From an uncultured Spirochaetales bacterium (lineage in GTDB: Bacteria > Spirochaetota > Spirochaetia > Sphaerochaetales > Sphaerochaetaceae), in assembly GCA_944392695.1 (NCBI GenBank), contig CALXXN010000010.1, positions 1 through 64,000 of the forward strand: 64,000 nt of DNA. Reading direction: 5' to 3'. Position 1 is the first letter of the stretch. Each line of letters starts with the position of its first letter. The position numbers and the translations under genes are program-made. Shown in pieces: positions 20,565 through 53,152 of this stretch. The notes beneath the pieces were generated by a model, which worked only from the letters and a program-made list of their open reading frames with translations, was not told the origin of the DNA and did no database searches.

Positions 20565-23246
20565 TCAGCGTTTATCGATTTCTATTGTCACAGGCTCTTG
20601 AGCTGTCCCCTCGAGGAAGATTGCGCGAAGACCATAGTATTCATCTACGTCAATGCTAGGTCTATCCTTCCCGAGTGAGTTATAACGCCCATACCCTACG
20701 ACAACCACATCGAAGTATCCGTCACTCGATGCTGATACAGTATATCGTGCACCTTCCTCCACTCCATCAAGGAAAACTGCCTTAAAGCCGCTGTCATCGG
20801 CAGTCTTTGTAATCACTTCATGGTCTTCATCAACTTGGACAGTGTTTTCCGTGATGAGTGTCCTTTCGTCATCTGAAATAGGTCTGATGAGGATCTTGTC
20901 CGTCTCAACTCCTCCAAGGAAGGGGTCTCTTAACAGGATTGCTATACGACCATCATAGCGGCCGATATAACAGAGTACAGTAGCAGTGTCTGTATTGCTG
21001 TCAAAGCTGAATGGAAGGAAATCCATCAGGGGTTCTTCACTCTCATAATCGAAGGCCCTGATATAGCTGACACCATGGACACCTCCCCAAGTCAGGTTCC
21101 CACCCTGGAGAGTAATCTCAAGTATGAGTTCCTCTGAGGAATCAGCATCGGCAAAGTAAAGTCCAGGCGCATCAAAATCCTGTCCTTCAGAAGTCAAGGT
21201 TATCGGCAATACAAGTTCAAATGACTCTGTCGACTCTGAGGGACGTTCTGGATCACCACTATCCCGTACTTCGATACGACTGATCAAGATGACTTCCTCA
21301 TCTTCCAACATGTATGAAGAATCAGCATAAAGGCCATCAATCTCATATCCGCTATCAATATCAATGAGATACCAGCTATTAGAGAAACTGCCAGAACCAA
21401 GAGATGTATTTGCCAGCACATGCAAGCGACCTGGTTCTGGAACCCTCATCTTGAAGCAACCAATGACGAGGTCACCTTCATCAGTCTTGGCTATAGCGTT
21501 TTCAGCTTTGGCAACCATGGAAGCTTCTTCGCTTGGAACAAACTTGATGGCTCTGAATTCTGCAGAACCCTCAATGCCAAAACCTGCCGCATCAACGCTC
21601 ATCTCTGTATCAGTTGCAAGGAAGACGAAGAATCCTGGATAGACCTCGATGAAGCGGTCATCAGGCCGTGGCATGTTTTGTCCAAAGTAGAATCCATACA
21701 CATTGCCAATCTCAAGGTTCTCAAAGACCAGCTTGTCGTTCCAGCCGATTGATATTGCCCTAGATAATTCATCTGTCAATGTAGATGCATCGACTCTCAC
21801 TTCTTTTTGTACAACAGGATCAAAGCCTTTAGTGCTGAGCTCGAGCACGAATTCTCCTTTGACACATCCATCATTGCTTATGAACGCATGCTCAAGAATC
21901 CAGTTGCTGTGCCTATCATTCACTTCTCCGCTATCAGAACTATGATTTGCATAACCATAGCCATTAGTATGTCCACTTGTAATCTTGAAGAAGTATGCAT
22001 CAGGGTACAACGCCCTGAGCTGCAATCCTTGATAGGTACGAGGATCATCCCCTTTGAAGATGATAGGAACGAGGAAAGTATCTTCATTAAGAGTGAAGGT
22101 TTCTTCCATGTAACCATCTTGCATCTTGGATAAGTCCACTTCCCTGATAAGATTCCTTTCGTCTTCCGTTATCTCCCTGAGCCTTATTGTTCCAGGATTT
22201 TCAATTGTGGTGTCCTGGACAATGATGTCAAAGATGAAGTCCTCTTCAACCTCTCCTACATAAAGGACAACCTTGTTCTCTGTTTGATCATAGTCGATTG
22301 GGAATAGATAAGGCTGCCGTTTGCCCCTGTTGCCATTATCATCATATGCCACACGGGAGTTGACGGTATTATAGAAGAAGTCGAAATCCCCAATCCAGTT
22401 ATCGCCGATATCGAGTTCGAGAACCATCTCCTCACTATCAGGGCAATCCGCCTTTTCCACCTGGTAGAGCCCTCTGACTGGGGCTATTGTTGTACTTTGC
22501 TCGTTTCCTGCCGCGACCACCGTGGGATTCTGGATTATGATTTCATAATGCCTATCACTATCACCCGATTTGACTATCTGGCTGAAGATGTACAATTCAT
22601 CGTGCTCGTACTCACTCAAGTCGAGGATACCATCCTTGCTGTTATCCCTGAAAGAATATGGATCGTTTGGATCAAGGATTCCAAAGTCAGTATCGAACCG
22701 ACTTGTCCTGCCTCCTTCTCCTACCCTGGTCATATAGTCATATATTGCAAAGCGTTCCAGCTCTAATCCCTGTTCCCTAAGCTCATCAAGTCTTACCACA
22801 TAGAATTCTTCATACGCCCTGCAATGGTAGCCTTCATCATCCCAATACTCATAGGCATGAGCATCATCCATGGTATTGATGACCATGTCATCTTGAGTGA
22901 TGGGATACTCCAAGATGGTCACCTCACTACTCCCAGAAACCCCAAGCTCGGCAGCAGAGAATGTCACATCTGTCCCATCTGACAGCAGGAGCTGGGTTCC
23001 TCCGTTCGTTGGCACCAAGCCTGGAGCAGAGCTACGGGCTCGAGCATCAACACCATGGGCGTTGATGCCGTATAGCCTATTCGGTGTAAGCCCGGTCAGG
23101 GTGATCGTGTCACCTGCAGATACAGTTATCTCCTGAGATGTTTCTGTTGGGCTGATTTCCAGATTCCTAGGTTCTGGAGTCTCCTGGGAACATGATATTA
23201 CAAGTAATAATGAAATGATCACCAGAATAGTGGCAGTCTTTTTCAT
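20565..23246 (-). CDS. Large lipoprotein B (three-member tandem family)
   Basis: 893 residues from the ATG at 23246 (GGGGAG 8 nt upstream). Signal peptide MKKTATILVIISLLLVISC with the lipidated Cys at 19. It shares with A and C the N-terminal block TLTGLTPNRLYGINAHG, a DGTDVTFSAAELGVSGSSEV strand pair, FENLEIGNVYGFYFGQN, VDAAGFGIEGSAEF, DSSEELILEITLQG and the C-terminal VTIEIDKR. It starts 14 bp after the stop of lipoprotein C and has no separate promoter, so both depend on the upstream leader. Function unknown. Confidence 0.85.
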   Translation of the reverse strand: MKKTATILVIISLLLVISCSQETPEPRNLEISPTETSQEITVSAGDTITLTGLTPNRLYGINAHGVDARARSSAPGLVPTNGGTQLLLSDGTDVTFSAAELGVSGSSEVTILEYPITQDDMVINTMDDAHAYEYWDDEGYHCRAYEEFYVVRLDELREQGLELERFAIYDYMTRVGEGGRTSRFDTDFGILDPNDPYSFRDNSKDGILDLSEYEHDELYIFSQIVKSGDSDRHYEIIIQNPTVVAAGNEQSTTIAPVRGLYQVEKADCPDSEEMVLELDIGDNWIGDFDFFYNTVNSRVAYDDNGNRGKRQPYLFPIDYDQTENKVVLYVGEVEEDFIFDIIVQDTTIENPGTIRLREITEDERNLIREVDLSKMQDGYMEETFTLNEDTFLVPIIFKGDDPRTYQGLQLRALYPDAYFFKITSGHTNGYGYANHSSDSGEVNDRHSNWILEHAFISNDGCVKGEFVLELSTKGFDPVVQKEVRVDASTLTDELSRAISIGWNDKLVFENLEIGNVYGFYFGQNMPRPDDRFIEVYPGFFVFLATDTEMSVDAAGFGIEGSAEFRAIKFVPSEEASMVAKAENAIAKTDEGDLVIGCFKMRVPEPGRLHVLANTSLGSGSFSNSWYLIDIDSGYEIDGLYADSSYMLEDEEVILISRIEVRDSGDPERPSESTESFELVLPITLTSEGQDFDAPGLYFADADSSEELILEITLQGGNLTWGGVHGVSYIRAFDYESEEPLMDFLPFSFDSNTDTATVLCYIGRYDGRIAILLRDPFLGGVETDKILIRPISDDERTLITENTVQVDEDHEVITKTADDSGFKAVFLDGVEEGARYTVSASSDGYFDVVVVGYGRYNSLGKDRPSIDVDEYYGLRAIFLEGTAQEPVTIEIDKR

Positions 23247-23260
23247 GACAATCTCCCCTT

Positions 23261-25849
23261 TCATTGCTTATCAATGCTGATGACGAACGGCTCCTTTGAA
23301 TAACCAGCAACACAGATGGTCTGGAGACCGCTGTTCCGATTGAACGTGTAATCAAGCTTACCACCAGCATGATGATATCCATTTTCATCACTGATGAAGA
23401 CATCGATGTCCTCAGGAAGAGTCGTCGCTGAGAAATGCAAAGGCCCAGCCACCCGCTGGTCAATGAATCTGATATATGGCATGCCTGTACTCATATCGAC
23501 AGTCAATGTTTCATCTCCATCGATAATAAACTTGTTCTTACTCATCATGGCTGCTTGTTCATCAGACAGAGGGTACACCCTTATGGAGTCTGGCTCCGCA
23601 ACAGGTTGCTTCTCGAAGCTTACAATCAAGTCCTCATCATGAGGTCCGATATAGAGCTGTCCTGCCCTCTGTGCCACAGACAATGGCATACGGTCGACAA
23701 AGAGGCTTTCGTCCAATCCAACCATCCTGATTTTACAGAGGCTGCCAATGTCATCAGCAGAAGTGTCTGTTTTGAATGTCATATCCAAGACAGTCGGCTC
23801 TGTACTGGCTTTCAGCAAGTAACATGAAGAGGCATCCAAATCCTGGTATTCCTCATCAAGAGGCTGCATTTCAACAAGCTTGAACGAAGCCATGACAGGA
23901 TCTTCACCGATGACTGTCCTCTGCACAAAGACATATGAGCCCTCATCGAATACATAGGTGTAACCATCAAGACGGTTCAGCCAGTAACCATTCATCTCGA
24001 AGACATAGTCAGTACAACGGCTGCTTGGAGTGACAGATCTTTCAATCTTGTACACCCCGGGTCCTGGCACATCAAGCTTGAAGCAGTCAATCACGACATG
24101 GCCATCTGAAGTCTCTGCAATGGCCCTGTCTTTTGTGAGGTCGGCCTCCAAGTCTTCCTGCATCTCGAAGGAAACACAGCTCAAGGAGACTTCATCACGA
24201 ATGCCGAAAACAGCAGCTTCTACTTCAAGTCTGTCACTTGTGGCAAGGAAGATGAAGAAACCATCCTCAACCTCTATGAAACGGCTATTTGGGCTCGTTG
24301 CCCCTGATCCAAGATTGAAACCATAGACATTGCCAGGGACAAGGTTGGTGAAGGTGATTGTCGTACCAAAGTCCACATTACCCTGTTCTGAAGGTTCGTC
24401 TATCTGGAGCCTGCTGGCATCTACAATCAGTTCATTCTGGACAGGGCCTCCATGACTTTCCGAGCTGAGGGTGAGATTGATAGTCCCATCCCTACCTGAT
24501 GTGTTCCTGGCGACCGCATACTCAAGCTGTTGTCCATCAGGAGACCATGCCTCCCCTCTCCTCAGGTCGACGCTGGAAACACTTGTGCCTCCAGAGCTTG
24601 ATGCGACGACCATGAGGTTCTGTCCTCCATCAGAGTACGTTGCAAGAAGGCTCAGGTCAGGATATTTGCCATTGTCGTTCTCGAAGATGACAGGAGTAAA
24701 CCACTCAGAGGCACTGAGATCGATGGCAACTTCCATGAAACCCTCATTTCCAACCGTATCCAGGTTAACATGCTGTATCCGATCCTTCTCATCCTCAGTG
24801 ACAGCCCTGGTCTTTATCGTCCAAGGTTGGACATCACCTGTTGTAGTGATTTCGAAGACAAAGTCCTCTTCAACAGGACCTGCATAGAGGACTACAGTGT
24901 TTTCATCTTTGTTGTAAGACAATGGGAAGACATAGCGCTTACGGAGTCCACCATCCGCAAGACGGGAATCTATACGCCTGCCATTCAAATCAAAGTCTTC
25001 AATACTGTTTCCGCCAAGACCAATCTCGATTGCCATCTCATCATCAGCCCCAAGGCCAGTAGGTCCTGTTAGGAAGACTGCATTGTCATCAGTGATTGTC
25101 ACCTGTTCTTCAAACTCAAGCTCGACGGGGTTTTCAATAAAGACCTCCTGCTGGATTTCCCCTTCAATCAACACGACCTGGTTGAAGACATGTATCACGT
25201 CATAATCTTTGGAAGAAAGATTCAACACACCACTCTTCTTGATGCTCTCAAGATTGCCATGACCTTCCTCCTGGTAGAAGATGTCGTAGTTGGTGCTAGA
25301 TGTGCCATGCCCATCATACCTGCGGAATTGGACGACATTGTTACGCTTGAGACCCGTAACCTCATTAAGCCTTATCGGGTAATACTCCTCGTAGACATAA
25401 CACCTACGTCCCTGGGAATCTGTATATCGATAAAGATACTCCTCCTTCGTCGTATCGATGAGCATGTCGTTATCGATATCAGGTTGTGGAACATACTCGA
25501 CAACTGTCACATTCCCATCACCCATGATGCCGACATCAGCGCCAGAGAATGTGACATCACTGCCATCAGAGAGGAAGAGCTGGGTCCCACCATCTGTGCT
25601 TATGAAAGGTGTGTCCCCTGCTGCCCTGGAAGAAGCCTGGGCACCATGTGGGTTGATACCATAGAGGGTCCCTTCCTTAAGACCTTTCAATGTAACTGTA
25701 TCATTGCCAGATACTGCTACGACCTGGATCGACTCATCCAGGACGACATCAGTGTTCTGGGTTGGAGCTTCTGGCGTGTCTGGTGAACAGGATGCCAGGA
25801 GCATGAGTGTGATTACGATGGTCGAGATGATAGAGACAGCTTTCTTCAT
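23261..25849 (-). CDS. Large lipoprotein C (three-member tandem family)
   Basis: 862 residues from the ATG at 25849, chosen for the GGGGGGA site just upstream and the signal peptide MKKAVSIISTIVITLMLLASC (Cys at 21). The first third is closest to lipoprotein B (LKGLKEGTLYGINPHG, DGSDVTFSGADVGIMGDGNV); FTNLVPGNVYGFNLGSG and VEAAVFGIRDEVSL follow. It ends in FVISIDKQ. It is first in a two-gene operon with B. The leader is a duplicate of the lipoprotein A leader and includes a 9-G tract. Probably a surface lipoprotein; no enzymatic motif seen. Confidence 0.85.
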   Translation of the reverse strand: MKKAVSIISTIVITLMLLASCSPDTPEAPTQNTDVVLDESIQVVAVSGNDTVTLKGLKEGTLYGINPHGAQASSRAAGDTPFISTDGGTQLFLSDGSDVTFSGADVGIMGDGNVTVVEYVPQPDIDNDMLIDTTKEEYLYRYTDSQGRRCYVYEEYYPIRLNEVTGLKRNNVVQFRRYDGHGTSSTNYDIFYQEEGHGNLESIKKSGVLNLSSKDYDVIHVFNQVVLIEGEIQQEVFIENPVELEFEEQVTITDDNAVFLTGPTGLGADDEMAIEIGLGGNSIEDFDLNGRRIDSRLADGGLRKRYVFPLSYNKDENTVVLYAGPVEEDFVFEITTTGDVQPWTIKTRAVTEDEKDRIQHVNLDTVGNEGFMEVAIDLSASEWFTPVIFENDNGKYPDLSLLATYSDGGQNLMVVASSSGGTSVSSVDLRRGEAWSPDGQQLEYAVARNTSGRDGTINLTLSSESHGGPVQNELIVDASRLQIDEPSEQGNVDFGTTITFTNLVPGNVYGFNLGSGATSPNSRFIEVEDGFFIFLATSDRLEVEAAVFGIRDEVSLSCVSFEMQEDLEADLTKDRAIAETSDGHVVIDCFKLDVPGPGVYKIERSVTPSSRCTDYVFEMNGYWLNRLDGYTYVFDEGSYVFVQRTVIGEDPVMASFKLVEMQPLDEEYQDLDASSCYLLKASTEPTVLDMTFKTDTSADDIGSLCKIRMVGLDESLFVDRMPLSVAQRAGQLYIGPHDEDLIVSFEKQPVAEPDSIRVYPLSDEQAAMMSKNKFIIDGDETLTVDMSTGMPYIRFIDQRVAGPLHFSATTLPEDIDVFISDENGYHHAGGKLDYTFNRNSGLQTICVAGYSKEPFVISIDKQ

Positions 25850-25864
25850 TGATCCCCCCGATAT

Positions 25865-25901
25865 GACAAAAGCGCCAGGGCCATGGTGATGGCTGTGGCG
25901 C
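25865..25901 (-). terminator. Terminator-like hairpin in the leader of lipoprotein C
   Basis: GCGCCA (25872-25877) pairs with TGGCGC (25896-25901), with an inner GCC/GGC pairing, followed on the minus strand by TTTTGTC and then the ribosome binding site of lipoprotein C. Same placement as at 20279-20304. Confidence 0.55.
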
Positions 25902-25951
25902 CTTGTTTTCGTTCTTGATGATGCTGGGTCTTGTCTGACTAGGAATCCCCG

Positions 25952-25960
25952 CCCCCCCCC
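25952..25960 (-). repeat. Poly-G tract (9 G) in the leader of lipoprotein C
   Basis: Nine consecutive C on the plus strand, preceded by CCCCG. It is about 100 bp before the ATG and about 80 bp after the predicted start, the same spacing as the tract at 20373-20382. Confidence 0.9.
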
Positions 25961-26044
25961 ATTGCTGTTTTGGAGGGACCAGCTGGCTGGTGTTGGATTG
26001 ATGGATGATTCAGAGACAGGCATCATTCAATTTCCCCTGAATCC

Positions 26045-39223: not shown

Positions 39224-41929
39224 TCAAGCCTTCTTCCCAGCGATTGCTGCCTGTGCGGCTGCAAGACGGGCGATTGGCACACGGAAGGGTGAGCATGAGA
39301 CGTAGTTCAAACCAACCTCCTGGCAGAAGCGGATCGTCTTCGGATCGCCTCCGTGCTCGCCACAGATGCCCAGCTTGATATCAGGGCGGACAGAGCGGCC
39401 AAGGTCCGCAGCCATCTTCACGAGCTTGCCCACACCACCGACATCGATTGTCGCGAAGGGGTCGTACTCGTAGAACTGCTTGTCAGCATCCCCTACATAG
39501 TGGGAGAGGAAGCTTGCGGCATCATCACGTGAGAAGCCACAGGTCATCTGGGTCAGGTCGTTGGTGCCGAAGCTGAAGAACTCAGCCTCCTTTGCGATCT
39601 CATCAGCGGTGATAGCGGCACGTGGGACCTCGATCATCGTACCGATCTTGTAGTCGACCTTGAGCCCCTGCTCGTCGAAGACACGATCGATCACAGCGAG
39701 GGCCTTCTTCTTACAATAGATGAACTCCTTGTCGATGCCCACGAGAGGGATCATGATCTCAGGCTTCACATCATAACCTTCCCTCTTCGCCTGGATGGCG
39801 GCCTCTATGATCGCCCTGACCTGCATCTCGAGGATCTCAGGATAGACGACGGCAAGGCGGCAGCCACGGAAGCCGAGCATCGGGTTGAACTCATGGTGAC
39901 GTGCGATCTTCTGGCTCAGCTCCTCGACGGAGATGCCAAGCTGCAAGGCCGTCTCATGACGCGTCGTGCTGTCGTTGGGCAGGAACTCGTGCAGAGGCGG
40001 GTCGAGGAGGCGGATCGTCACAGGAAGACCGTTGAGTGTCTTGAAGATCTCATAGAAGTCACCACGCTGCATCGGCAAGAGCTCGGAAAGCGCCTGCTCA
40101 CGGGCACCAAGCGTGTCCGCGAGGATCATCTTGCGCATGGAGAGGATGCGGTTGCCACCGAAGAACATGTGCTCGGTGCGGCACAGTCCTATGCCCTCCG
40201 CTCCAAGCAGGACGGCGTAACGTGCATCCTTCGGTGTATCGGCATTGGTCCTGACACCCATGGTCTTGATCTCGTTCACGTAATCCATGAACTTCTTGTA
40301 GTTCTGGTAGAGGAGGCTCTCGGATTCCCTCATCGTACCATCGAGGACCTGCATGATCTCGCTTGGGCGCACAGGGATCTTCTGGGTGTAGACCGCGCCT
40401 GTGAAACCATCAATCGCCATGTAGTCGCCTTCGACCAGTTTGACACCATTGACGGTGAGTGTCTTCTGGATCTCGTTGACATGGATCTCGCCGCAACCGG
40501 AGACACAGGGGCAGCCCATGCCACGTGCGACAACGGCGGCGTGGCTTGTCATGCCACCACGGCAGGTGACGACACCACGGCTGACAGCCATGCCCCCGAT
40601 ATCCTCAGGACTTGTCTCCTCACGCACAAGGATGACGTCCTTGCCCTCGGCGGCGGCTTCCTCAGCGGCCTTGGCAGTGAAGTAGATCTGGCCGCAGGCA
40701 CCACCAGGGCTGGCGGCGAGGCCTGTCGTGGCGACCTTGATCGAGAGGTCGCGGATGATCTTGTTGTCAAGGATCGGGGCGAAGAGCTTGTTGAACTCCT
40801 GGGCCGGGACACGGGATACAGCCGTCTCCTTGTCGATCAGGCCCTCCTCCACCATCTCAACCTGGCTGCGCAGCCAGGAGAAGATCGTCCTCTTGCCACT
40901 GCGGGTCTGCAACATGTAGAGCTTGCCTTCCTGGATGGTGAACTCGATGTCCTGCATGTCATGGTAGTGCTCTTCCAGCTTGGTGCGGATCTGGCACAAC
41001 TGCCCATAGACATCAGGATTGACCTTGGCGAGCGTATCAATCGACTGCGGGGTGCGGATACCTGCGACGACATCCTCACCCTGGGCGTTCATCAGGAATT
41101 CACCGAAGAAGCGGTTCTCGCCACTGGAGGGGTCACGGGTGAAGGCGACACCTGTACCAGAGGTCTCACCCATGTTTCCAAAGACCATGGACTGCACGTT
41201 GACGGCAGTCCCCAGGAGGCCGCGGATGTCGTTCATCAGGCGGTACTTGATCGCACGTTCGTTGTTCCAGGACCTGAAGACAGCGTCGATGGTCTTGAAG
41301 AGCTGGTATTCGGGGTCTGTCGGGAAGTCCTCCCCTGTGCCCTTCTTGTAGACGATCTTGTAACGCTTGATGACTTCCTTGAGGTTGTCGACATCAAGCT
41401 CGGTGTCGAAGGTCTTGCCATTCTCGTCCTTGACAGCCTGCAGGACACGCTCGAACTCGCTGTGGGGGACACCCATGACGACATCACCGAACATCTGGAT
41501 GAAGCGGCGGTAGCTGTCCCAGGCGAAGCGCTCGTTGCCCGTCTTGTCGATGAGGGCCTGGAGCGAGTCGGGGTTAAGTCCCAGGTTGAGGACGGTGTCC
41601 ATCATTCCAGGCATCGACTGCGCGGCACCGGAACGGACTGAGACCAGGAGAGGGTTCTTCTTGTCGCCGAGCTTGGCACCCATCAGCTTCTCCAACTTGG
41701 CAAGGTTCTTGAGCACCTCGTCCCTGAGGCCTTCTGGATAGGCGCCTTCATGTTCATCAAAGTAGGCACAGGCCTCTGTCGTGATCGTGAAGCCTGGAGG
41801 AACTGGAAGGCCAATGCTGGTCATGTCAGCCAGGTTGGCACCCTTGCCTCCAAGCAGCGCCTTCATATCAGCCCTGCCCTCTGTCTGGCCGGCTCCAAAG
41901 AAGTAGACATACTTTTTATCTTTGCTCAT
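39224..41929 (-). CDS. ppdK: Pyruvate, phosphate dikinase
   Basis: 901 residues. Interconverts pyruvate, ATP and phosphate with PEP, AMP and PPi; in anaerobes it serves PPi-linked glycolysis or gluconeogenesis. The N-terminal ATP-grasp domain begins YVYFFGAGQTEG and has LLGGKGANLADMTSIGLPVPPGFTITTEAC. The phosphohistidine domain has CRGGMTSHAAVVARGMGCPCVSG with the catalytic His. The C-terminal barrel has LCRTEHMFF and SFGTNDLTQMTCGFSRDD. Full length. It is monocistronic, with its own promoter and terminator. Confidence 0.98.
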   Translation of the reverse strand: MSKDKKYVYFFGAGQTEGRADMKALLGGKGANLADMTSIGLPVPPGFTITTEACAYFDEHEGAYPEGLRDEVLKNLAKLEKLMGAKLGDKKNPLLVSVRSGAAQSMPGMMDTVLNLGLNPDSLQALIDKTGNERFAWDSYRRFIQMFGDVVMGVPHSEFERVLQAVKDENGKTFDTELDVDNLKEVIKRYKIVYKKGTGEDFPTDPEYQLFKTIDAVFRSWNNERAIKYRLMNDIRGLLGTAVNVQSMVFGNMGETSGTGVAFTRDPSSGENRFFGEFLMNAQGEDVVAGIRTPQSIDTLAKVNPDVYGQLCQIRTKLEEHYHDMQDIEFTIQEGKLYMLQTRSGKRTIFSWLRSQVEMVEEGLIDKETAVSRVPAQEFNKLFAPILDNKIIRDLSIKVATTGLAASPGGACGQIYFTAKAAEEAAAEGKDVILVREETSPEDIGGMAVSRGVVTCRGGMTSHAAVVARGMGCPCVSGCGEIHVNEIQKTLTVNGVKLVEGDYMAIDGFTGAVYTQKIPVRPSEIMQVLDGTMRESESLLYQNYKKFMDYVNEIKTMGVRTNADTPKDARYAVLLGAEGIGLCRTEHMFFGGNRILSMRKMILADTLGAREQALSELLPMQRGDFYEIFKTLNGLPVTIRLLDPPLHEFLPNDSTTRHETALQLGISVEELSQKIARHHEFNPMLGFRGCRLAVVYPEILEMQVRAIIEAAIQAKREGYDVKPEIMIPLVGIDKEFIYCKKKALAVIDRVFDEQGLKVDYKIGTMIEVPRAAITADEIAKEAEFFSFGTNDLTQMTCGFSRDDAASFLSHYVGDADKQFYEYDPFATIDVGGVGKLVKMAADLGRSVRPDIKLGICGEHGGDPKTIRFCQEVGLNYVSCSPFRVPIARLAAAQAAIAGKKA

Positions 41930-44180: not shown

Positions 44181-44586
44181 AGGAGAAGAGGAAGCGCTCC
44201 ACCTTGTCAGGATAGCCCGAGAGCACCTGGCCTTCGTCGTCAGGACGGGCGAAGGGTGGTATGCAGCTCAGGACGGTCTGGGCGTAGCGCCGTCCCATGC
44301 GCCCATCGGCGATCAGGGCCACGCCCCTGTCATCCTGGCTCCGGATCAGGCGGCCCAGCCCCTGCTTCAACCTCATCAGCATCAACGGCAGGTCGATCTC
44401 CCTGAAGGAGGCCCACTCGTTGCCCGTCTGTCTGGCGATCGCCCTCTTGCGCGCCTTCATCACACAATCGCTTATGTTCTGGAAGGGCAGCTGGGTGATG
44501 ATCAACAGCCTCAAGGCATCACCTTGGATGTCCACGCCTTCCCAGAAGGACTGGAGGCCGTAGAGCACCGCGTCCAGGTTTACCAT
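44179..44586 (-). pseudogene. 3' fragment of the DinG/XPD-type helicase gene
   Basis: 135 codons starting at a fortuitous ATG supplied by the island (MVNLD). They then match the last 128 or so residues of the intact helicase at 51011-53152 (helicase motifs V-VI, LRLLIITQLPFQNISDCVMK to RLKQGLGRLIRSQDDRGV), apart from the penultimate residue of the tail (FLFS here, FLYS there). The Walker A half is missing, so it cannot be a helicase. Because the GC-rich flank toward groES looks native, this is probably the original 3' end of the gene, displaced by the island. Confidence 0.9.
44192..44575 (+). repeat. Left copy of a 384-bp direct repeat
   Basis: Matches 51024-51407 base for base, except G at 44239 against A at 51071 (a silent change). 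The offset is 6,832 bp. It bounds the three-gene island on the left. Confidence 0.95.
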
Positions 44587-44633
44587 GATTTATTTTGATA
44601 AAGCTGATTACTAGTGCTTGATTCTCAATATGG

Positions 44634-47405
44634 CTATAAATCAACGCTACAAACAGGTAAAGATGTTGTAGCAGAATCCATTAGAGTTATGCCTTGCGTT
44701 CCTTTTCCTCCAGAAAAAGCGAATTTATCAAGTATAACATGACTTGTTCCAGTCCCGCCTACACCAGAATAAGTGTATGAATTAGCACTACAATTTGATA
44801 AAGACATTGTAGCAGAATCATAACTCCAATAGCCAATAGCATTATTATTACTTCTACAATTTACACATTTCAAATTGGAATCATCGGAACACGCATATCC
44901 TGCTTCCTTGCAATTTGAACTATTACAATGCGTGCATACACATTTAGATTTTCCACTACAGGCAAACCCAACACTGCATAAGTTACTACCGCAATCTTTT
45001 AAGCTACACATACCATCTTGCAAGAAGAAGCCATAGTTTTTTGAATTATTAAATTCGCAAGCCTTAAACTCCGCATTAGAATCACCGAACACGCCAGCAC
45101 AGGCGTTTTCACATTTCTCGAACATGGTATCCCTTACTTCAATGTTTGAGCCTTCAACATACAAAGCTGTATCGCCTCCAGAAAAGAAGCAGGAATGTAT
45201 ACTTGCTGTAGACTTACCACTGATATGTACAGCGTATTCTTTAGCATTCTCTACATTGCAACGGGTGAAATAAGCTTCACAACCCTCTTCTATAGTGAAT
45301 CCTTCAGAACAACAATTGGCAACACAGCCGTTAAATCTAAGATGACTGGTTTTTTTATTTCTGCTAAATATACGAGAAAAAGTGTCTGTTGGTTTAAATG
45401 TTTTATCATTGAGGTAAAAACACTCAATTCCAATGTCAGAATAAAAACCATAATCACATTCAGTAGCAATACAATTTGAAACTTCGGTATAACGCACTGA
45501 ATTGAGGCGGAATCCTGTATTACAACCATTTGCTTCACAATCTGACACTTCTGCTTCACGGCCAATGTCACAACCTATTTCACAATTTAAAAACCTGTTG
45601 CCTCTCAAACTCAGTTTCCATTTAGAAGGTATTGAATCTGCTTCTATACCATTGTTGCAATTGCTGATTCTGCAATCTACAACACTCAGATTTCCAGACA
45701 AATGTGAAGCATTAATCCCAAAATCACAAGAAGAAATATCAAGAGAACATAGATTATACAATCTCTCTGCTCCACATAGTCCAAAATCGAAGTCTATACC
45801 CATTTGGCATCCATATATACAAGTATTCATTATACTGCCAGAAGATGCTTTTCCGACTGAAATCCCTCTCAAAACCATTGAGGAAGCATCAGAAATAAAA
45901 ACACAATGCTCAATAGCTATACCAGCAGCATAAAGATAAATAAGCGACCTGATTTCCTCTTCTGGTTCATCATCAGTTATATAAACTTGTGGATCAAGTT
46001 GCTTCGCTACCTCCATCTTTGTTTTCAATTCATCTTTTTCGATAGACCAATCATCTGTAAAGGCAATGTCTATTAAACGCGCGGGAGCCAAAACCTCAGA
46101 TCCATTTCTAGTAACAATAATAGGCATAGATCCTGATTCCCCAGCCTTAAGTGTAATAGACTTATCGATATGAAGGTCTTCTTCATAAATCCCAGGCTGA
46201 ATTAGTATCGTGACACCCTCAGGAACGGAGTCCAAAGCTTCCGAGATAGTGGAGAAATCAGCATTACCTGAACACGAAACAGATATTTCGTCTCCTGCCT
46301 TGAATTCTTTTTTTACTGGATTGGCACCACCATCAAAGATTGATGATTTAGCTTGCAAGATACGCAGCCTTTCAAGAGGTCTCGTTTCTTCTATTTCAAG
46401 CGTAGCTGCGAGTTGCTGAGCTGCCTCCATATAGCTCTCAATACCAAGAGTTTTGGCATTTCCAAGAAGAACCATAACTTTACACGCTTTTATAACAGCA
46501 CTGTCAGGATACATTTCGACTGCATCGTTAACAATATCCCATGCCTCCAACAATGCGCCGCGATTCAAGGCATCATCAACAAGAAAGGGAATAACGCTTA
46601 TAGAAGATTTTGGCATTTGCAATAAGACATCGTCAAAGCGTTCTGGTGATTCATGTTTAACCGCACTCAAAAAACATAATAGGATTTCTTCATCACCAGG
46701 ATGTTTGCTATATAATGGTTCAATTAAAGACATTGCACCTGAAGCGCCGTCCAACACAAGCTTTTCTGCTTTATCAAGAATACCTTGTTCTATAAGATCA
46801 AGCTTAGTTTTTGACTTTGAGTCTTCTTTCAGTATTGAGGCCAAAAGCTTTTCTGCGTGATCTGCATCCACGCCAAAAACAGTAGCTTTAGAAAGCAATG
46901 TAGAACGACGGAGTGCCCCAACAGGTCCATTTATTTCATTGTGAAGGAATGCCCGATAAGATTCTGTTGCTTCACAACGCTCTTCTTCTACACATTTTAC
47001 ACATGCTGAATTTTCTTCATCATAACAACTAGCACAAACAAATCGTCCGCATCTAGGACATGTAAAGCCATCTACACCAATCAAATGTCGTCCACAGAGA
47101 CTGCAAATCTTAACCCGCCTAGTATCATCTTCATTTTTAATGATAGTGGCATCTCCGGAAATATGAAAATCATCTTTTGAGCCGATTACATCACCAGCAA
47201 TAACATTTCGATTTCCAATCATAGGCGATGATTCAGAAGGAACTCCACTATCGAGAGAGAAACCACAATGCATACAAAACCGGGCGTCAGAAGAAACTTC
47301 CACACCACATGATGGACAGGTTCTACTCAGTTTTGTTCCGCAAAGCTCACAAAAACGGCTCCCAGCAGGATTGTCATGTCCGCAATTTTGAGAAGGGCAC
47401 CTCAT
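44634..47405 (-). CDS. Zinc-ribbon and right-handed beta-helix protein
   Basis: 923 residues from the ATG at 47405 (AGAGG 9 nt upstream, 2 bp after the previous stop). Residues 1-50 hold two zinc ribbons (C3/C8/C19/C22 and C30/C33/C44/C47). Residues about 58-86 (GNRNVIAGDVIGSKDDFHIS) look like a short beta-stack. Residues about 95-138 form a third Cys cluster like a B-box or RING (CSLCG, CPRCGRFVCASC, CVKC). A helical region of about 200 residues follows. From about 370 to the end there is a long right-handed parallel beta-helix of short repeats rich in Cys, Asn and Ser (NCNNGIEAD, GCNTGFRLN, ECDYGFYSD), starting with a pectate-lyase-like FSTISEALDSVPEGVTILIQPG. No signal peptide: it is intracellular. 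Probably a scaffold or ligand sensor. Confidence 0.85.
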   Translation of the reverse strand: MRCPSQNCGHDNPAGSRFCELCGTKLSRTCPSCGVEVSSDARFCMHCGFSLDSGVPSESSPMIGNRNVIAGDVIGSKDDFHISGDATIIKNEDDTRRVKICSLCGRHLIGVDGFTCPRCGRFVCASCYDEENSACVKCVEEERCEATESYRAFLHNEINGPVGALRRSTLLSKATVFGVDADHAEKLLASILKEDSKSKTKLDLIEQGILDKAEKLVLDGASGAMSLIEPLYSKHPGDEEILLCFLSAVKHESPERFDDVLLQMPKSSISVIPFLVDDALNRGALLEAWDIVNDAVEMYPDSAVIKACKVMVLLGNAKTLGIESYMEAAQQLAATLEIEETRPLERLRILQAKSSIFDGGANPVKKEFKAGDEISVSCSGNADFSTISEALDSVPEGVTILIQPGIYEEDLHIDKSITLKAGESGSMPIIVTRNGSEVLAPARLIDIAFTDDWSIEKDELKTKMEVAKQLDPQVYITDDEPEEEIRSLIYLYAAGIAIEHCVFISDASSMVLRGISVGKASSGSIMNTCIYGCQMGIDFDFGLCGAERLYNLCSLDISSCDFGINASHLSGNLSVVDCRISNCNNGIEADSIPSKWKLSLRGNRFLNCEIGCDIGREAEVSDCEANGCNTGFRLNSVRYTEVSNCIATECDYGFYSDIGIECFYLNDKTFKPTDTFSRIFSRNKKTSHLRFNGCVANCCSEGFTIEEGCEAYFTRCNVENAKEYAVHISGKSTASIHSCFFSGGDTALYVEGSNIEVRDTMFEKCENACAGVFGDSNAEFKACEFNNSKNYGFFLQDGMCSLKDCGSNLCSVGFACSGKSKCVCTHCNSSNCKEAGYACSDDSNLKCVNCRSNNNAIGYWSYDSATMSLSNCSANSYTYSGVGGTGTSHVILDKFAFSGGKGTQGITLMDSATTSLPVCSVDL

Positions 47406-47407
47406 TC

Positions 47408-49243
47408 TTACATCCTCTTTCCACAAGTCTGACAAAAAGTAGCTTCAACAGGATTTGAAGCTCCGCAAGATGGACAAGTACTTACCCTACCTGCTCCAGT
47501 GATACTACGCACAGTTGTTTCCATTACCTGTGTATACCTATCTTGCTCAGACCTAGCATCGCTACGTACACGTTCAACTTCACTTTCCCTCTTATGGCCC
47601 TCTGCAATTACCATGGTTCGCATGAGATCCATTTGCTTTTCCATGAACGAACGCATTTCTTCACTCTTCTCTTGTACGAGGCGGACTTTCTCCTCGGCTT
47701 GCTCTGACGAGAACTTTCTAGCAAGAGCTTCAGCCGCAGCAGGAGTGATACATGGATTTGCTGCCATGATTTGTTCCGCATTCATCCCTGAATAAACCTT
47801 CAGTTTTTCCTCTTCGGAACTAAGATTCAACCTAAGTTTCTCTTGTTCTGCTTCGATGGCCAGCTTTTGCTTTTCGAGTTCCATATTGTGGTATGCACTT
47901 TCTCTCGCCAATCTTATTTCTTGTGCTTGACGAAGCGCATCTATTTGGCTTGATGTTTCTTCTCTATCAAGTCTTAAAGTTTCTCTCCTTAGATTTAAAT
48001 AGTATTCATCTTCCAGTTTTTTCCGTTCTATAGCGTTTTTATGGCGGATTGCTTTTATGTCCTCTTCCCTTCGGACTTGCAGTGATTCAAGTTCAGACTC
48101 ACCATCAAACATCGCTCTTGCAGCGAGCTGGGCATCGCTGATTTCCTGCATCTTATCCTTTTGTTGAAGCGAACGTACTAAGCTATCATATTCAGAATCA
48201 CGAAGAAGCTTGCTTTGACGGATTCCTGAAAGGGCTACCTCTTCATCCTCTTTTGTACGAGCTTCTCTTAATCGGCGCTGAGAAGCTAGTAAAAGGGCAA
48301 ATGCTTGACGTTCTTCATCAGTTAACAATTTCCTTTCATCAACCTTCTCCATGAGAGCTGAGAAATCAGCCTCACTTGATGCATGGCGGAGCTGCTGTTC
48401 CATGTCCTCTCTGTTCAAACGAAGCATGAAGTCATTGCGACGTCGAATTTGAGCAAGGCCAGCTTCTGAAACATGAAGCTCTTCATCTAATTTCCTGACT
48501 TCATCTAGAGGTTCATTAGAAAAAACAAATGAGCTGACATTGTTGAGAGAAAGATAAGGATATGAAGCTGTAAAGCATGCTTCAAAAATTGGCCTTGTTT
48601 CTTCGATTACAGCATCTTCGTCCAGAAGTTCCCTATATGATTTGTCTTTGGTATATCTTCTCAGTTTTGAAGTGATGTCGGTTTTTAGTAAAGATGAAAC
48701 AAAGCTGCTTGTAACATCTTTCTGCTCAACTAAAAGGGCTTTATGGAAAGCAAGAATGTCGTTGATTTGGCAACTGAATGACAATGCAGCAGATACTGAA
48801 ACATCTGCAGCAGGAAGACCTTCAATGTACACAGATAAAGGAAAGCCTGCCTCCCGAATCAATATGATTGATATAAAGTTTGAGGCAGTATCTCCTTTAC
48901 CCTTGAATACCCCTGCAATGAATCGCTTAAACCGACTAATTGCAGACGAATCAGAGAGAACATCAAAATCATAGCGTCCCGGTCCAAGTTCGCCCAGGAT
49001 CTTACCATCGATAGTTATCAAGGATTTCACACCTGGTGGAATATTGATTCCTTTGATTGTTCCCTCAAAATCATCTTGGTCGATTCTAACAGCAATCTGG
49101 CCTGGCAACATATTCCACTGCATGTAGTCAGCTATAATATCATAACCACGTAGTTTTTCTTGGTTTTTAACAGGCTTTCCACAAGCTGTACAGAAAACAG
49201 CCCCTTCCCTTAGTTCATTTCCACAATTCGAACACGTAGCCAT
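47408..49243 (-). CDS. SPFH-like coiled-coil protein with zinc ribbons at both ends
   Basis: 611 residues, AGGAGGGG before the ATG. N-terminal ribbon C4/C7/C18/C21. Residues about 40-250 resemble an SPFH/band-7 domain (LPGQIAVRIDQDDFEG, IPPGVKSLITIDGKILGELGPGRYDFD, and a strand-helix core), but with no N-terminal membrane anchor. Residues about 255-540 are a long charged coiled coil (KNAIERKKLEDEYYLNLRRE). A small UBA-like helical segment is inside it (MNAEQIMAANPCITPAAAEALA). The C-terminal ribbon is C590/C593/C604/C607. SPFH proteins form ring or cage oligomers. It is probably the oligomeric scaffold of this operon. Confidence 0.85.
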   Translation of the reverse strand: MATCSNCGNELREGAVFCTACGKPVKNQEKLRGYDIIADYMQWNMLPGQIAVRIDQDDFEGTIKGINIPPGVKSLITIDGKILGELGPGRYDFDVLSDSSAISRFKRFIAGVFKGKGDTASNFISIILIREAGFPLSVYIEGLPAADVSVSAALSFSCQINDILAFHKALLVEQKDVTSSFVSSLLKTDITSKLRRYTKDKSYRELLDEDAVIEETRPIFEACFTASYPYLSLNNVSSFVFSNEPLDEVRKLDEELHVSEAGLAQIRRRNDFMLRLNREDMEQQLRHASSEADFSALMEKVDERKLLTDEERQAFALLLASQRRLREARTKEDEEVALSGIRQSKLLRDSEYDSLVRSLQQKDKMQEISDAQLAARAMFDGESELESLQVRREEDIKAIRHKNAIERKKLEDEYYLNLRRETLRLDREETSSQIDALRQAQEIRLARESAYHNMELEKQKLAIEAEQEKLRLNLSSEEEKLKVYSGMNAEQIMAANPCITPAAAEALARKFSSEQAEEKVRLVQEKSEEMRSFMEKQMDLMRTMVIAEGHKRESEVERVRSDARSEQDRYTQVMETTVRSITGAGRVSTCPSCGASNPVEATFCQTCGKRM

Positions 49244-49260
49244 AATTCCCCTCCTGTCAA

Positions 49261-50718
49261 TTATTTCGATGTATACTCTGTCAAAATCGAATTATTTTCG
49301 CCGGTAACCAAGACTAAAACCTGGGGCACCCTCCCCCTCACGTCTTCATATATGACAAGGTTTTCGTCATTTATTCCCCTAGAATAAATTCTTGGCATGA
49401 CATCCAACATGTTTTGATGAAACTGCATGAGATAATCATCAAGTTTAATCTTCATCTCCTTAGATAAATCAGAAAGGCGTGAAAATGTTATTTGTCTGAC
49501 ATCTGGAAATTCAACCTTCAAAGAAGCATTTCTTGCTTTTGTCTCGAATGAAGTCCGCATCCTTAATTCAGGATCTCCAAAGAGGTTGAACTCTAATAAT
49601 GTTTTCAGCTCAATCTCTCTAACATTGCCCGCAAGTATGGATTCACGAGCTGCTTGGAATGCACTACCGGAAGAGGCTCCTTTCGATATATTAGAAAGGA
49701 AAACTGATGTCATTACGTCAGCACCTAGTAAAGAGCCATTCGAGGCACCAAATGCAATTCGACTAGAACCAAGAAAGGCTAAACATCCACCATCAATCGC
49801 ACTTAGAAGACCAGAGTTTCGTTTTTCAAACCCATTAAACCGGGCACCATAACAAGCCTCACAAGCCAACATGTATCCATGCTGTCTTGAAAGCAATTCT
49901 GGAACAAATGCTGTAGGATAACCACTTCCACGTTGACCATACCATTCGGCAGATTCCAAGTTGGCCGAACCATGGAGATTAAAATGAAGCAATGCACTTT
50001 CTGAAGGAAGTAATTCGGCTACATCCTCAGGGCCAGCATCGGGAGAAAGTAAAGGTTCTCCAGCTCCAAAAGAAGAAAGAATCACTTGTGAAGTCTTTTT
50101 CCAAACCTCTGCGCTAAGACAGAATGATTGCAAATCTTCATTTACAGTACGCCACGTGGCAGCACGATCAAGATATTGGAAAAGGGTTGATGCGCCACCA
50201 CGATAGGTTGGAAGTCGTCCAACTTGAAGCCAATATGCTGTATCAGGTAGCTTTGCTTTCCATGGAGAAGCTGTATTAAGTATGCTGTAACAAAAATCGG
50301 ACTCTATATCTTCATCTGTTTCTGTGGGGTCGTCATATCTTGCCATTGGAACAACAAAATCACTTCCTATGATAAACAGACTTGAAATACTTGTACGACG
50401 ATTCTTCACATCCTCAATAATGGCTATCACATCATTGAGACTAATATCTTGGCCATACTGAGCTAAATCGATAATACTATATTTTACACCAGACATTCTC
50501 ATTCGACTGGTATATTTCTCAATCAGTCCAATGATGATATTAGGATCAATACCTCCAAGTTCAAGCGACAGCTTTTTTGAATGTGTGATTATTAAGCAAT
50601 ATCTTTTCACTGTATCTTGCTTGGAAACCTGATGCGTGGCAGCACCACATTTTGGGCAATAACAATCAGATATTTGTAGGGGAGAACCACAAAAGGCACA
50701 AAATCTATCATCTGTCAT
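49261..50718 (-). CDS. Zinc-ribbon clan CD (caspase/gingipain-like) peptidase
   Basis: 485 residues from the ATG at 50718 (AGGAG 9 nt upstream; an ATG at 50727 lies too close to that site). N-terminal zinc ribbon C7/C10/C21/C24. The core has alternating strands and helices as in C25 and CHAT peptidases, with a His-Gly after a strand (LLHFNLHGSAN, H249) and a Cys after the next strand (YMLACEACYGARF, C289 most likely, C286 possible). These are the clan CD His/Cys dyad positions. A conserved-looking FNLFGDPELRMR near residue 380 resembles the end of C25 domains. No signal peptide, so it acts in the cytosol. First gene of the island operon; probably the effector. Confidence 0.82.
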   Translation of the reverse strand: MTDDRFCAFCGSPLQISDCYCPKCGAATHQVSKQDTVKRYCLIITHSKKLSLELGGIDPNIIIGLIEKYTSRMRMSGVKYSIIDLAQYGQDISLNDVIAIIEDVKNRRTSISSLFIIGSDFVVPMARYDDPTETDEDIESDFCYSILNTASPWKAKLPDTAYWLQVGRLPTYRGGASTLFQYLDRAATWRTVNEDLQSFCLSAEVWKKTSQVILSSFGAGEPLLSPDAGPEDVAELLPSESALLHFNLHGSANLESAEWYGQRGSGYPTAFVPELLSRQHGYMLACEACYGARFNGFEKRNSGLLSAIDGGCLAFLGSSRIAFGASNGSLLGADVMTSVFLSNISKGASSGSAFQAARESILAGNVREIELKTLLEFNLFGDPELRMRTSFETKARNASLKVEFPDVRQITFSRLSDLSKEMKIKLDDYLMQFHQNMLDVMPRIYSRGINDENLVIYEDVRGRVPQVLVLVTGENNSILTEYTSK

Positions 50719-50767
50719 AGCCAGCATCTCCTATAACAAAGACAGAACCACACACACCTAGAAAACA

Positions 50768-50798
50768 TGGTTATCCCGCCTTTTGAACCTTATCAAAA
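50768..50798 (-). promoter_or_regulatory. Promoter and inverted repeat upstream of the island operon
   Basis: Minus strand: TTGATA (50791-50796), 17-bp spacer, TAACCA (50768-50773), about 50 bp before the ATG. TTTTGA (50781-50786) and TCAAAA (50793-50798) form an inverted repeat over the -35. The rest of 50799-51010 is AT-rich with further TATAAA-like boxes and no gene. Confidence 0.4.
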
Positions 50799-51010
50799 GA
50801 CTACCACAGGACAAAGCCATACTCAATAGTTATTTATAGTACAAAGATAAATATAACAGTTCAGAAAACTTATACAATCGATAAGTCCTAGCACTCTATC
50901 ATTTCAGTCATAGAATTAACACAGATAGTATTTCGACTACAAAATCTTGGACGAATTCGTTTTCAATATACACTCTGTACTAAATCTATTATTCACAGTG
51001 AAAACTATCG

Positions 51011-53152
51011 CTATGAATATAAAAAGCGCTCCACCTTGTCAGGATAGCCCGAGAGCACCTGGCCTTCGTCATCAGGACGGGCGAAGGGTGGTATGCAGCT
51101 CAGGACGGTCTGGGCGTAGCGCCGTCCCATGCGCCCATCGGCGATCAGGGCCACGCCCCTGTCATCCTGGCTCCGGATCAGGCGGCCCAGCCCCTGCTTC
51201 AACCTCATCAGCATCAACGGCAGGTCGATCTCCCTGAAGGAGGCCCACTCGTTGCCCGTCTGTCTGGCGATCGCCCTCTTGCGCGCCTTCATCACACAAT
51301 CGCTTATGTTCTGGAAGGGCAGCTGGGTGATGATCAACAGCCTCAAGGCATCACCTTGGATGTCCACGCCTTCCCAGAAGGACTGGAGGCCGTAGAGCAC
51401 CGCGTCCCCGCTTGTTCGGAAGGTCTTCACAAGCTCACCTGTGTTCACACCACGCCCCTGCTTGAGCATGGGCAGCTTGACAAGGTCCTTCGTACGGCTC
51501 CAGACCTTCTCGAGCATCTCACGCGAGGTGAAGAGCACAAGGGCACCTCCACCACTCGATTCCACCAGGGGTGGGATGAGCGAGGCCAGGTAATCGGCGT
51601 ACTCATCCTTCTTCTTCGTGTTGAAGTCCACAGCCTCCTGGCATATCGGATAGAGCAACAGTGCCTTGGATGCGTAGTCGAAGGGAGAGGGGTAGAAGCC
51701 TGTCACCAGGTCATCCTTGCCATCAAGCCCCGTCTGTTTCAGGAAGAAGGAGAAGTCCTTGCCTGTCTTCAGCGTAGCAGAGGTGCATACGACTGATTCA
51801 AGCTTGTCGAAGATCATGTGGCGTAGCAAGGGCCCTACGCTGAGCGGGCTTGCATGCATCACGACATCCGATTCATCACTCTCATATGAGTACCAGAAGA
51901 CCTGGTCGGGATGGGCCTCGTGGTCCAAAAAACCCTCGATCACCGCGGCCATGCCACGGACATCGTCGAAGAGGCTTCGGAAGATGTTCAAGCGGACAAG
52001 GTCCTCGTTGTCCAGCTCGTTTGGCAGGATGATGGGCCTCAGGCCCTCCATCAGGCGGCACACCTCCTCTATCATCGGCAGGAGGGATTCAAGCGTCGGG
52101 GCGATTTCGGCATCGAAGGAGCGCACTGTCTCATCGATCAGGCACTGGGAGCTGAAGCGCTCGACATCCTCGCGTTGGATGATGTTCACCAGGAGGGCGC
52201 GTGCCAGGTCTATGAAGGAGCGCAGCGTGGCCCTCAAGGCCTCGGCATCCTCCTTCCTCACCCCGCCCCGGATCTCGGCGACCCTGTCGGCGAGGCACAT
52301 GTCACCACCACGGTAGAGCTTGTTGTAGACCTCCTCCATCTGGCGGCCTCCAAGCTCTGCTGAGAAGTACTCGGTCGCAGCGCGGTCGATGTTGTGGCAC
52401 TCGTCTATGACCAGGTGGTTGAAGGGAGGCAGCAGGGCCTGTTCACTGTACTCCTCCTCGCCTGCCGCCCTCATCGCGGCATCAATCAAGAGGAGGGCAT
52501 GGTTCGTGACGACTATGCGGCTCTTCGTGGCCTTCTCCGCAGCCTTGTAGTAGAAGCAGTGGCCGAAGTGTGGGCAGCGTTGCTTGAGGCAGCGGTCCTT
52601 GTCAGAGCGGATCTCCTTGACGAAGGCGCTGCGCAGCAGGTCCAGGTCCATCTCATCGACGATGCCCGACTCCGTGTTGGATGCCCATCTGAAGACACGT
52701 TCCTCTATGCTGGCCGTGTCCTTGAAGAGCTCGTCCCCCTCGCCCCTTGCCTTCTTCGTATAAGACAGGACAGCCCTGATGCAGGCGTAGTGGGCACGTC
52801 CCAGGAGGAGGCTGTAGGGCACACCCTCCCCAAGCGCGTCGATCAAGGTGGGCAGGTCCTTGTCGACAAGCTGGCGCTGCAATGCCGTGTTGCTTGTCGC
52901 GACGACGGTGCGCTGCTTGTCATCCCGCCCTGCCAGGATCGCAGAGGCGAGGTAGGCATAGGACTTGCCTATGCCAGTACCGGCCTCGATCACGGCGATA
53001 CCTGACTCGTTGTAGCACCTGGCCACATCCTTGGCCATCTGGAGCTGGTCAGGACGTTCCTCCCAGGAGGCGGTCTTCTCCTCAAGGAGGCCTCCGGGGG
53101 CGAAAATGTCCTCGATCATCTCATCAGTGATACGTGAACGGAGGGGGCTCAT
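51011..53152 (-). CDS. dinG: DinG/XPD-type superfamily 2 helicase
   Basis: 713 residues. Walker A EAGTGIGKS at about 56-64, DECH box at 250-253, and four cysteines between them (C124, C188, C193, C199) fit a 4Fe-4S cluster as in DinG/XPD. The C-terminal motifs SFWEGVDIQG and RLKQGLGRLIR are intact. It should unwind 5'-tailed DNA, for instance R-loops or replication forks. Its last 128 codons and stop now come from the 384-bp repeat and the island edge, so only the tail changes (FLYS instead of FLFS). It is last in the murG-to-helicase operon and overlaps the regulator gene by 4 bp. Confidence 0.93.
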   Translation of the reverse strand: MSPLRSRITDEMIEDIFAPGGLLEEKTASWEERPDQLQMAKDVARCYNESGIAVIEAGTGIGKSYAYLASAILAGRDDKQRTVVATSNTALQRQLVDKDLPTLIDALGEGVPYSLLLGRAHYACIRAVLSYTKKARGEGDELFKDTASIEERVFRWASNTESGIVDEMDLDLLRSAFVKEIRSDKDRCLKQRCPHFGHCFYYKAAEKATKSRIVVTNHALLLIDAAMRAAGEEEYSEQALLPPFNHLVIDECHNIDRAATEYFSAELGGRQMEEVYNKLYRGGDMCLADRVAEIRGGVRKEDAEALRATLRSFIDLARALLVNIIQREDVERFSSQCLIDETVRSFDAEIAPTLESLLPMIEEVCRLMEGLRPIILPNELDNEDLVRLNIFRSLFDDVRGMAAVIEGFLDHEAHPDQVFWYSYESDESDVVMHASPLSVGPLLRHMIFDKLESVVCTSATLKTGKDFSFFLKQTGLDGKDDLVTGFYPSPFDYASKALLLYPICQEAVDFNTKKKDEYADYLASLIPPLVESSGGGALVLFTSREMLEKVWSRTKDLVKLPMLKQGRGVNTGELVKTFRTSGDAVLYGLQSFWEGVDIQGDALRLLIITQLPFQNISDCVMKARKRAIARQTGNEWASFREIDLPLMLMRLKQGLGRLIRSQDDRGVALIADGRMGRRYAQTVLSCIPPFARPDDEGQVLSGYPDKVERFLYS
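51024..51407 (+). repeat. Right copy of a 384-bp direct repeat
   Basis: Same sequence as 44192-44575 with one difference (51071). It is inside the 3' end of the intact helicase gene and bounds the island on the right. Confidence 0.95.

Follow-up and report, generated by a model that had tools for sequence, protein, structure and literature searches.

We analysed a window of 64,000 nucleotides from an uncultured Spirochaetales bacterium (assembly GCA_944392695.1, contig CALXXN010000010.1, positions 1 to 64,000), which carries three minus-strand genes, here called the trio, at positions 44634-50718. The genes are separated by gaps of 17 and 2 bp, and their open reading frames (ORFs) lie where an initial annotation of this DNA had placed them. 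Gene 1 encodes a predicted C25 peptidase, gene 2 a putative SPFH protein, and gene 3 a cysteine-rich protein ending in a beta-helix, which we call the adaptor (Table 1). None of the three products has a strongly hydrophobic segment (Kyte-Doolittle maxima over 19-residue segments of 1.23, 1.33, and 1.54), in agreement with the earlier remark that signal peptides are absent, a judgement made here from hydropathy and not with a signal-peptide predictor.

Table 1. Coordinates of the trio genes, their predicted sites, and the flanking repeat; H252 and C292 are numbered from position 50727.
Feature	Position	Strand	Basis
Gene 1, predicted cysteine peptidase of family C25 (clan CD, gingipain fold); zinc ribbon at the N-terminus	49261..50718	-	Pfam, AlphaFold2, and RgpB match
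Peptidase zinc ribbon, predicted; CxxC at residues 7 and 21	50647..50700	-	Cysteine pattern
Predicted catalytic His, H252	49972..49974	-	Alignment invariance
Predicted catalytic Cys, C292	49852..49854	-	Alignment invariance
Gene 2, putative SPFH (Band_7_1/YdjI-like) domain and long helical, probably coiled-coil part; ribbons at both ends	47408..49243	-	hhalign; coiled coil by sequence only
SPFH N-terminal ribbon, CxxC at residues 4 and 18	49181..49234	-	Pfam Zn_Ribbon_1, 49.2 bits
SPFH C-terminal ribbon, CxxC at residues 590 and 604	47423..47476	-	Pfam DZR stretch 588-608
Gene 3, adaptor with ribbons and, at the C-terminus, a right-handed beta-helix	44634..47405	-	Pfam Beta_helix E 6.7e-21, DZR E 1.1e-11
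N-terminal core common to Bacteroidaceae third proteins (ribbons, second Cys-rich module, helical part), approximate	46761..47405	-	phmmer and alignment; borders by eye
Beta-helix region	44739..46247	-	Pfam PF12708, PF05048, and PF13229 stretches between residues 397 and 899
Duplicated dinG 3'-end fragment (native end beside groES)	44192..44575	-	Repeat comparison
Matching repeat copy within intact dinG	51024..51407	-	1 mismatch in 384 bp
dinG	51011..53152	-	Helicase_C_2 E 1.6e-36; frame open, C-terminal tail slightly altered, tail from island end

The product of gene 1 (485 residues, with an ATG at 50718 in a frame open from 50727) matched Peptidase_C25 (PF01364) at an E-value of 4.4e-11 and 43.1 bits, against a cut-off of 23. 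Its AlphaFold2 model had a mean predicted local distance difference test score (pLDDT) of 80, and the best Foldseek matches of this model were the gingipains RgpB and Kgp (E 3.8e-12). Aligned with VIA-align, the model scored Z 31.9 against RgpB (318 residues, root-mean-square deviation 3.0) and 28.4 against Kgp; separase, Csx29, and TPR-CHAT scored about 12-17, and the C25 protein PorU 14.2. Sequence searches of the PDB with the window protein or with an alignment of trio C25s returned nothing useful. H252 and C292, the predicted catalytic dyad whose conservation the initial annotation had named as a check, are invariant in all ten aligned trio C25s (including one, from locus L013, whose start is cut off). 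They are equally unchanged across a wider alignment, in 56 of 56 rows, which comprise 54 of 74 usable generic C25 ranges plus the window and L013 proteins. Gene 1 thus encodes a member of the C25 family with a predicted gingipain-type fold, a fold by itself being no proof of function. Its N-terminal ribbon is called from the cysteine pattern and from relatives because the Pfam ribbon models stayed below cut-off (best Zn_ribbon_NUD, 22.7 bits against 24.8). One related trio C25, at L111:845-3286, has an additional C-terminal domain of more than 200 residues.

The product of gene 2 (611 residues) has a second, C-terminal ribbon that the initial annotation did not mention. Pfam models of the band 7 group matched neither this protein nor the L106 protein, and for the Band_7_1 (YdjI) family PF13421 matched nothing in genome G000. 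Compared by hhalign, a profile of 11 homologues matched a profile of Band_7_1/YdjI-like proteins (22 of the 31 sequences in hand) over 198 columns with a probability of 94%, an E-value of 1.1e-7, and a score of 63.2. As controls, two reversed profiles reached 18.4 and 17.7, none of 15 column shuffles went above 22.4, and no score above 18.0 came from three other alignments. A score this far above the reversed, shuffled, and other controls argues that gene 2 probably encodes a diverged SPFH protein, and so bears out the earlier description of the middle protein as SPFH-like. An hhalign run of the same profile against a single YdjI-like sequence had been unconvincing (probability 1.9) and is superseded by the profile-profile comparison. 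PDB sequence searches with the window protein and with the 11-homologue profile found nothing useful. In a genus relative of the window's host (G171), L152:1441-2643 encodes an SPFH protein of YdjI-like type whose C-terminal part has several zinc-ribbon motifs.

We scanned genome contigs for the C25 pattern, which matched 200 stretches, 110 of them relatives, and examined the best 80. By phmmer with the window protein, an SPFH neighbour was present at only one of these 80 loci, L013, from an uncultured Mediterranea (Bacteroidaceae), and absent from the other 79; none of the 80 showed a CxxC-pair ribbon within 250 residues of where the frame begins (L013 being cut at its start). C25 peptidases in general are therefore found without the trio, and the linkage is limited to a ribbon-bearing clade. 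Among generic C25s, those of three rhizobial plasmids (L002, L004, and L008) lie near ferritin-like and radical SAM genes, with a tryptophan 7-halogenase as well in L002 and L004, possibly a different C25 gene set.

Our co-occurrence sample comprised 251 genomes from the family of the Mediterranea genome, with the same genomes listed in both scans. An SPFH scan with a two-row alignment matched 11 genomes, two of them (G513 and G553) by the ribbon only; dropping these left nine. A C25 profile scan matched 15, from which five ribbon-only genomes (G513, G574, G582, G687, and G704) were dropped, leaving ten. All nine SPFH genomes were among the ten ribbon-C25 genomes (Fisher p 1.1e-15, uncorrected for relatedness), and in the tenth, G585, the contig stops 42 bases past the C25 stop. 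The C25 and SPFH genes were adjacent in 10 of 11 loci (two from G575), with their order swapped in L112. In all ten loci with a long enough contig, the operon also encodes a third protein that has one CxxC or more, in several with an extra gene between; the third protein of L112 has a single CxxC. The N-terminal ribbons that the initial annotation had seen on all three window proteins recur as CxxC pairs in 9/9 trio C25s with a complete N-terminus, 11/11 SPFH proteins, and 9/10 third proteins.

In a tree of 71 C25 rows, the 12 trio-labelled sequences, among them that of L202, which lies where a contig ends, and that of L203, which is unlinked, formed one group apart from the 59 others (support 100/99), with the window C25 as a long branch next to the 11 Bacteroidaceae rows. 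Across 10 loci, C25 and SPFH distance matrices were correlated (rho 0.83), a value reached in 0 of 5000 permutations. We conclude that the trio is a real, co-inherited gene set in two distant lineages, that of the window's host and the Bacteroidaceae. The proposal that these genes form a set was checked by asking whether homologues stand alone, and within the ribbon-bearing clade they were not found alone. The single C25 clade with its long window branch, together with the correlated distances, indicates that the set is old and that the window copy is no recent gift from the sampled Bacteroidaceae. SecA of the window matches that of the host's class relatives along its whole length at 53-60%, and that of a genus relative at 82%. 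Four Bacteroidota genomes match it only piecewise, but so do others, one of the host's own phylum (G300) included, and Roseateles matches end to end at 48%; the comparison speaks against a Bacteroidota host, short of proof, and suggests a spirochaete.

The set is also rare. In the host's class, C25 was found in 1 of 297 genomes and the SPFH protein in 1 of 248 (profile), and in the host's phylum a single-sequence SPFH search matched 1 of 296; in each case the sole match was the window's genome. The C25 had no match in a collection of 50,697 phage records. Among viral contigs, single-protein scans with the C25 and SPFH proteins and a scan with the SPFH profile found no relative, and the only relative picked up by the C25 profile was a generic C25 (L114) with neither an SPFH nor a beta-helix match. 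Ten plasmid records matched the C25, all at less than 60% identity, and none matched the SPFH protein; phmmer with the window proteins found no SPFH or beta-helix protein in seven plasmid C25 regions, and none was annotated nearby in the five that are annotated.

The third gene is the variable member. In the window its product is 923 residues long from the ATG (an alternative TTG start would fall at 47435). It has CxxC motifs at residues 19, 30, 44, and 101, and contains ribbons and a further Cys-rich module. By phmmer, window residues 101-390, which include this second module, match the third proteins of L105, L106, L107, L109, and L110 (E 4.7e-9 to 3.3e-6). Eight of ten third proteins from the Bacteroidaceae reach a hydropathy maximum of at least 2.2, taken as a membrane-like segment; the exceptions are that of L112 and the second of two in L113. 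Sel1 or TPR repeats pass the Pfam cut-off in the third proteins of L109, L110, and L111 and in the two of L113; in those of L106, L108, and L112 they fall short of it. The C-terminus of the adaptor is lineage-specific, and the beta-helix seen here is missing from most of the Bacteroidaceae third proteins, which tend to have a membrane segment. Two parts of the initial annotation are not supported on this account: the beta-helix is not a constant part of the set, and "self-contained intracellular" is too strong a description of it, because the Bacteroidaceae third proteins mostly have a membrane-like segment and several have Sel1 or TPR repeats. A small unassigned protein is encoded between the SPFH and third genes in several Bacteroidaceae loci (L106:7112-7582 and L108:1156-1587), and is not found in the window.

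Genes of the cell envelope recur around the trio in the Bacteroidaceae. In the set of neighbours that was scanned, a transglycosylase of SLT/MltC-like type was found at five loci (L105, L106, L107, L108, and L202), DUF6175 at four (L106, L107, L109, and L110), and LPP20 at two (L106 and L107); LpoB exceeded its cut-off in a neighbour at L109 only.

In the window, the trio sits on an insert of 6,448 bases (44576-51023) with a guanine-plus-cytosine (GC) content of 39.9%, against 54.1% for the window without island and repeats. The 384-bp direct repeat that bounds it has the sequence of the dinG 3' end; neither this repeat nor the position of the insert, with dinG on one side and groES on the other, was mentioned in the initial annotation. 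Other ORFs of at least 80 residues in the insert overlap the trio genes in other frames, a Pfam scan found no integrase among the island's three genes, and a promoter scan 5' of the C25 gene stayed at chance level. A dinG match is present in 14 of 16 genomes of the genus, the host's own included, and in the other 13 dinG and groES are adjacent: measured between tblastn match ends, they lie within 80 bp in 10 genomes and 314, 771, and 1766 bp apart in the rest. The relatives' dinG pieces have 65-90% DNA identity, about 66% over the longest piece. Given this adjacency and this identity, the insertion seems to be a recent one, with a repeat that most likely formed inside the species itself. The island was probably acquired horizontally, and its excision through recombination between the repeats is possible. 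Two genus relatives hold other cargo in the same gap, one a TnpB-like and a small acetyltransferase-like ORF (L149:7139-8904) and one a nuclease-related-domain-like ORF (L148:833-1603), all named by eye from sequence and without a profile; insertions may thus have come into this gap repeatedly. Housekeeping genes surround the island here, with pyruvate phosphate dikinase at 39224-41929. Farther off, a lower-GC stretch (17645-26026) contains three paralogous-looking, lipoprotein-like genes of about 900 residues with no significant Pfam, NCBIfam, or PADLOC match.

Gingipains, which are secreted proteases of P. gingivalis, share the fold and the His/Cys dyad of the trio C25, whereas the latter has no hydrophobic leader, is ribbon-tagged, and lies beside an SPFH gene. 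Craspase TPR-CHAT/Csx29, SAVED-CHAT, and separase are clan CD proteases controlled by partner proteins and belong to the same fold superfamily; however, the island has no CRISPR or cyclic-nucleotide sensor, its three genes include no gRAMP/Cas7-11 partner of the type III-E Craspase, and by Pfam and Z-score the trio enzyme is closer to C25. HflKC-FtsH and stomatin-STOPP are pairs in which, as here, an SPFH scaffold goes with a protease, but one of another clan, and the trio has a ribbon adaptor besides.

Of the systems studied, the one closest to the trio is the PspA-YdjGHI membrane-stress complex of B. subtilis, which, in the parts of the two papers available to us, combines an SPFH protein of the same superfamily (YdjI), a zinc-ribbon partner with a membrane segment, and a link to peptidoglycan synthesis, is PspA-linked, and has no peptidase described (PMC8581546, PMC9239133). 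YdjI requires YdjG/H for its placement at the membrane and loss of YdjG/H mislocalises wall synthesis (PMC8581546), and YdjG has a zinc ribbon (PMC9239133). The trio differs in that its SPFH protein has diverged beyond the reach of Pfam Band_7_1 and carries a ribbon at each end. No PspA gene is among the island's three, and no Pfam PspA match was found among the Bacteroidaceae neighbours scanned, which were part of the flanking genes. The archaeal Meth_adaptin protein likewise unites SPFH, coiled coil, and zinc ribbon, there in a single protein, but in an ESCRT/adaptin context, and the text of the paper on it has neither 'C25' nor 'caspase' (PMC10936438). A preprint on vault and defence NADases (PMC13174449) was checked for SPFH or protease parallels and was not used.

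Beyond the co-inheritance of the genes, we infer as the most economical model that sensing falls to the adaptor, gathering to the SPFH scaffold, and cutting to the protease. The SPFH protein would oligomerise into a ring or cage, and the adaptor, membrane-like in most sampled Bacteroidaceae and a soluble beta-helix here, would detect damage to the envelope or membrane or some other ligand. Ribbon contacts could then bring the peptidase onto the scaffold, where clustering or a conformational change might license cleavage, whether its target is a cellular protein or the adaptor. Such a device would work like PspA-YdjGHI with a protease replacing PspA, or like other SPFH-protease pairs. Co-occurrence, adjacency, the one C25 clade, matched distances, the conserved dyad, the gingipain-type fold, the SPFH profile match, envelope neighbours, membrane-like adaptors, and what is known of YdjGHI all lead us to favour, tentatively, a horizontally acquired proteolytic surveillance module for the membrane or envelope that works by these steps, a reading we hold to be close to an even call and slightly on the doubtful side of it.

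Several observations weigh against this surveillance reading. The window and Bacteroidaceae C25s share only 21-29% identity, and a structure model of the SPFH core (two sequences) had a pLDDT of 48, too poor for a structure search. At L107 the SPFH gene and adaptor are present with no C25, that of the genome being a divergent form on another contig. In the class of G492 the SPFH protein was found in 1 of 295 genomes, the query G492 itself. Homology among the third proteins is weaker, with a phmmer match at 5 of 9 Bacteroidaceae loci; in L108, L111, L112, and L113 the third protein was recognised from where it lies and from its CxxC motifs and repeats, and the ribbon of the third protein exceeded the Pfam cut-off in only 2 (L106 and L108) of the 8 Bacteroidaceae third proteins scanned, a scan outside which those of L105 and L107 fell. 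Finally, the window's third protein has no membrane segment, and the island in the window lacks the envelope genes.

The main rival, possible though less probable than surveillance, is that the trio acts in anti-phage defence or abortive infection, with the beta-helix or repeats of the adaptor recognising a component of an invader, the SPFH protein assembling, and the protease killing or arresting the cell. A defence role would suit the patchy spread of the genes (C25 in 1/297 and SPFH in 1/248 class genomes, SPFH in 9/251 of the Bacteroidaceae set), the recent low-GC island, the variable C-terminus of the adaptor, and the fold kinship with Craspase and SAVED-CHAT. Of 6 neighbouring proteins compared with PADLOC, 3 also matched candidate families, at L106 and L109; however, these families are broad and occur at two loci only, and the core proteins have no match of this kind (PADLOC 2.0.0; 0/3 window trio proteins at E 0.1 and 0/4 Bacteroidaceae trio proteins at E 0.01). 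The phage records lack the C25, peptidoglycan and envelope genes recur instead, and the island stands among housekeeping genes. Defence had been one of the functions suggested in the initial annotation, and the missing PADLOC matches, the absence of a phage C25, and the confinement of defence-candidate neighbours to two loci do not support it. About as doubtful is a module for immunity or programmed death, with an SPFH cage that would license a gingipain-fold executioner protease, the sensor end of the adaptor having been exchanged between lineages among beta-helix, TPR, and membrane-spanning Sel1 repeats.

Rather unlikely, in our estimate, is constitutive proteostasis, in which the SPFH scaffold would regulate a protease turning over membrane or cytosolic proteins, as in HflKC-FtsH or stomatin-STOPP. 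The partnership of SPFH proteins with proteases is a known theme, a 1999 paper reportedly has SPFH and targeted protein turnover in its title, and the dyad is conserved, but a housekeeping role fits poorly with a C25 in a single one of the class genomes and with a recent insertion. We consider it improbable that a mixture of strains produced the dinG repeat and its junctions as an artefact of assembly: both 384-bp copies, with their one mismatch, do lie on one contig of a 39-contig assembly, but the outer ends of the copies differ, the dinG reading frame is intact with a new tail, and the trio recurs elsewhere. That unrelated genes came together by chance, or as hitchhikers on a mobile island, has very little left in its favour beyond the 79 of 80 genome loci of C25 homologues and the seven plasmid loci without an SPFH match, and is largely refuted within the genomes examined by the repeated adjacency, the nine-genome overlap, the one C25 clade, and the matched distances.

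The trio is apparently undescribed as a protein-cutting surveillance module: a full-text literature search, with most subscription journals outside its coverage, gave no paper describing it among the matches listed. Some Bacteroidaceae are genetically tractable. The trio ties two widespread classes of protein, SPFH scaffolds and caspase-fold C25 proteases, into one conserved bacterial gene set and, if the surveillance reading is true, the control of proteases by SPFH proteins and the intracellular action of gingipain-fold enzymes would become directly testable.

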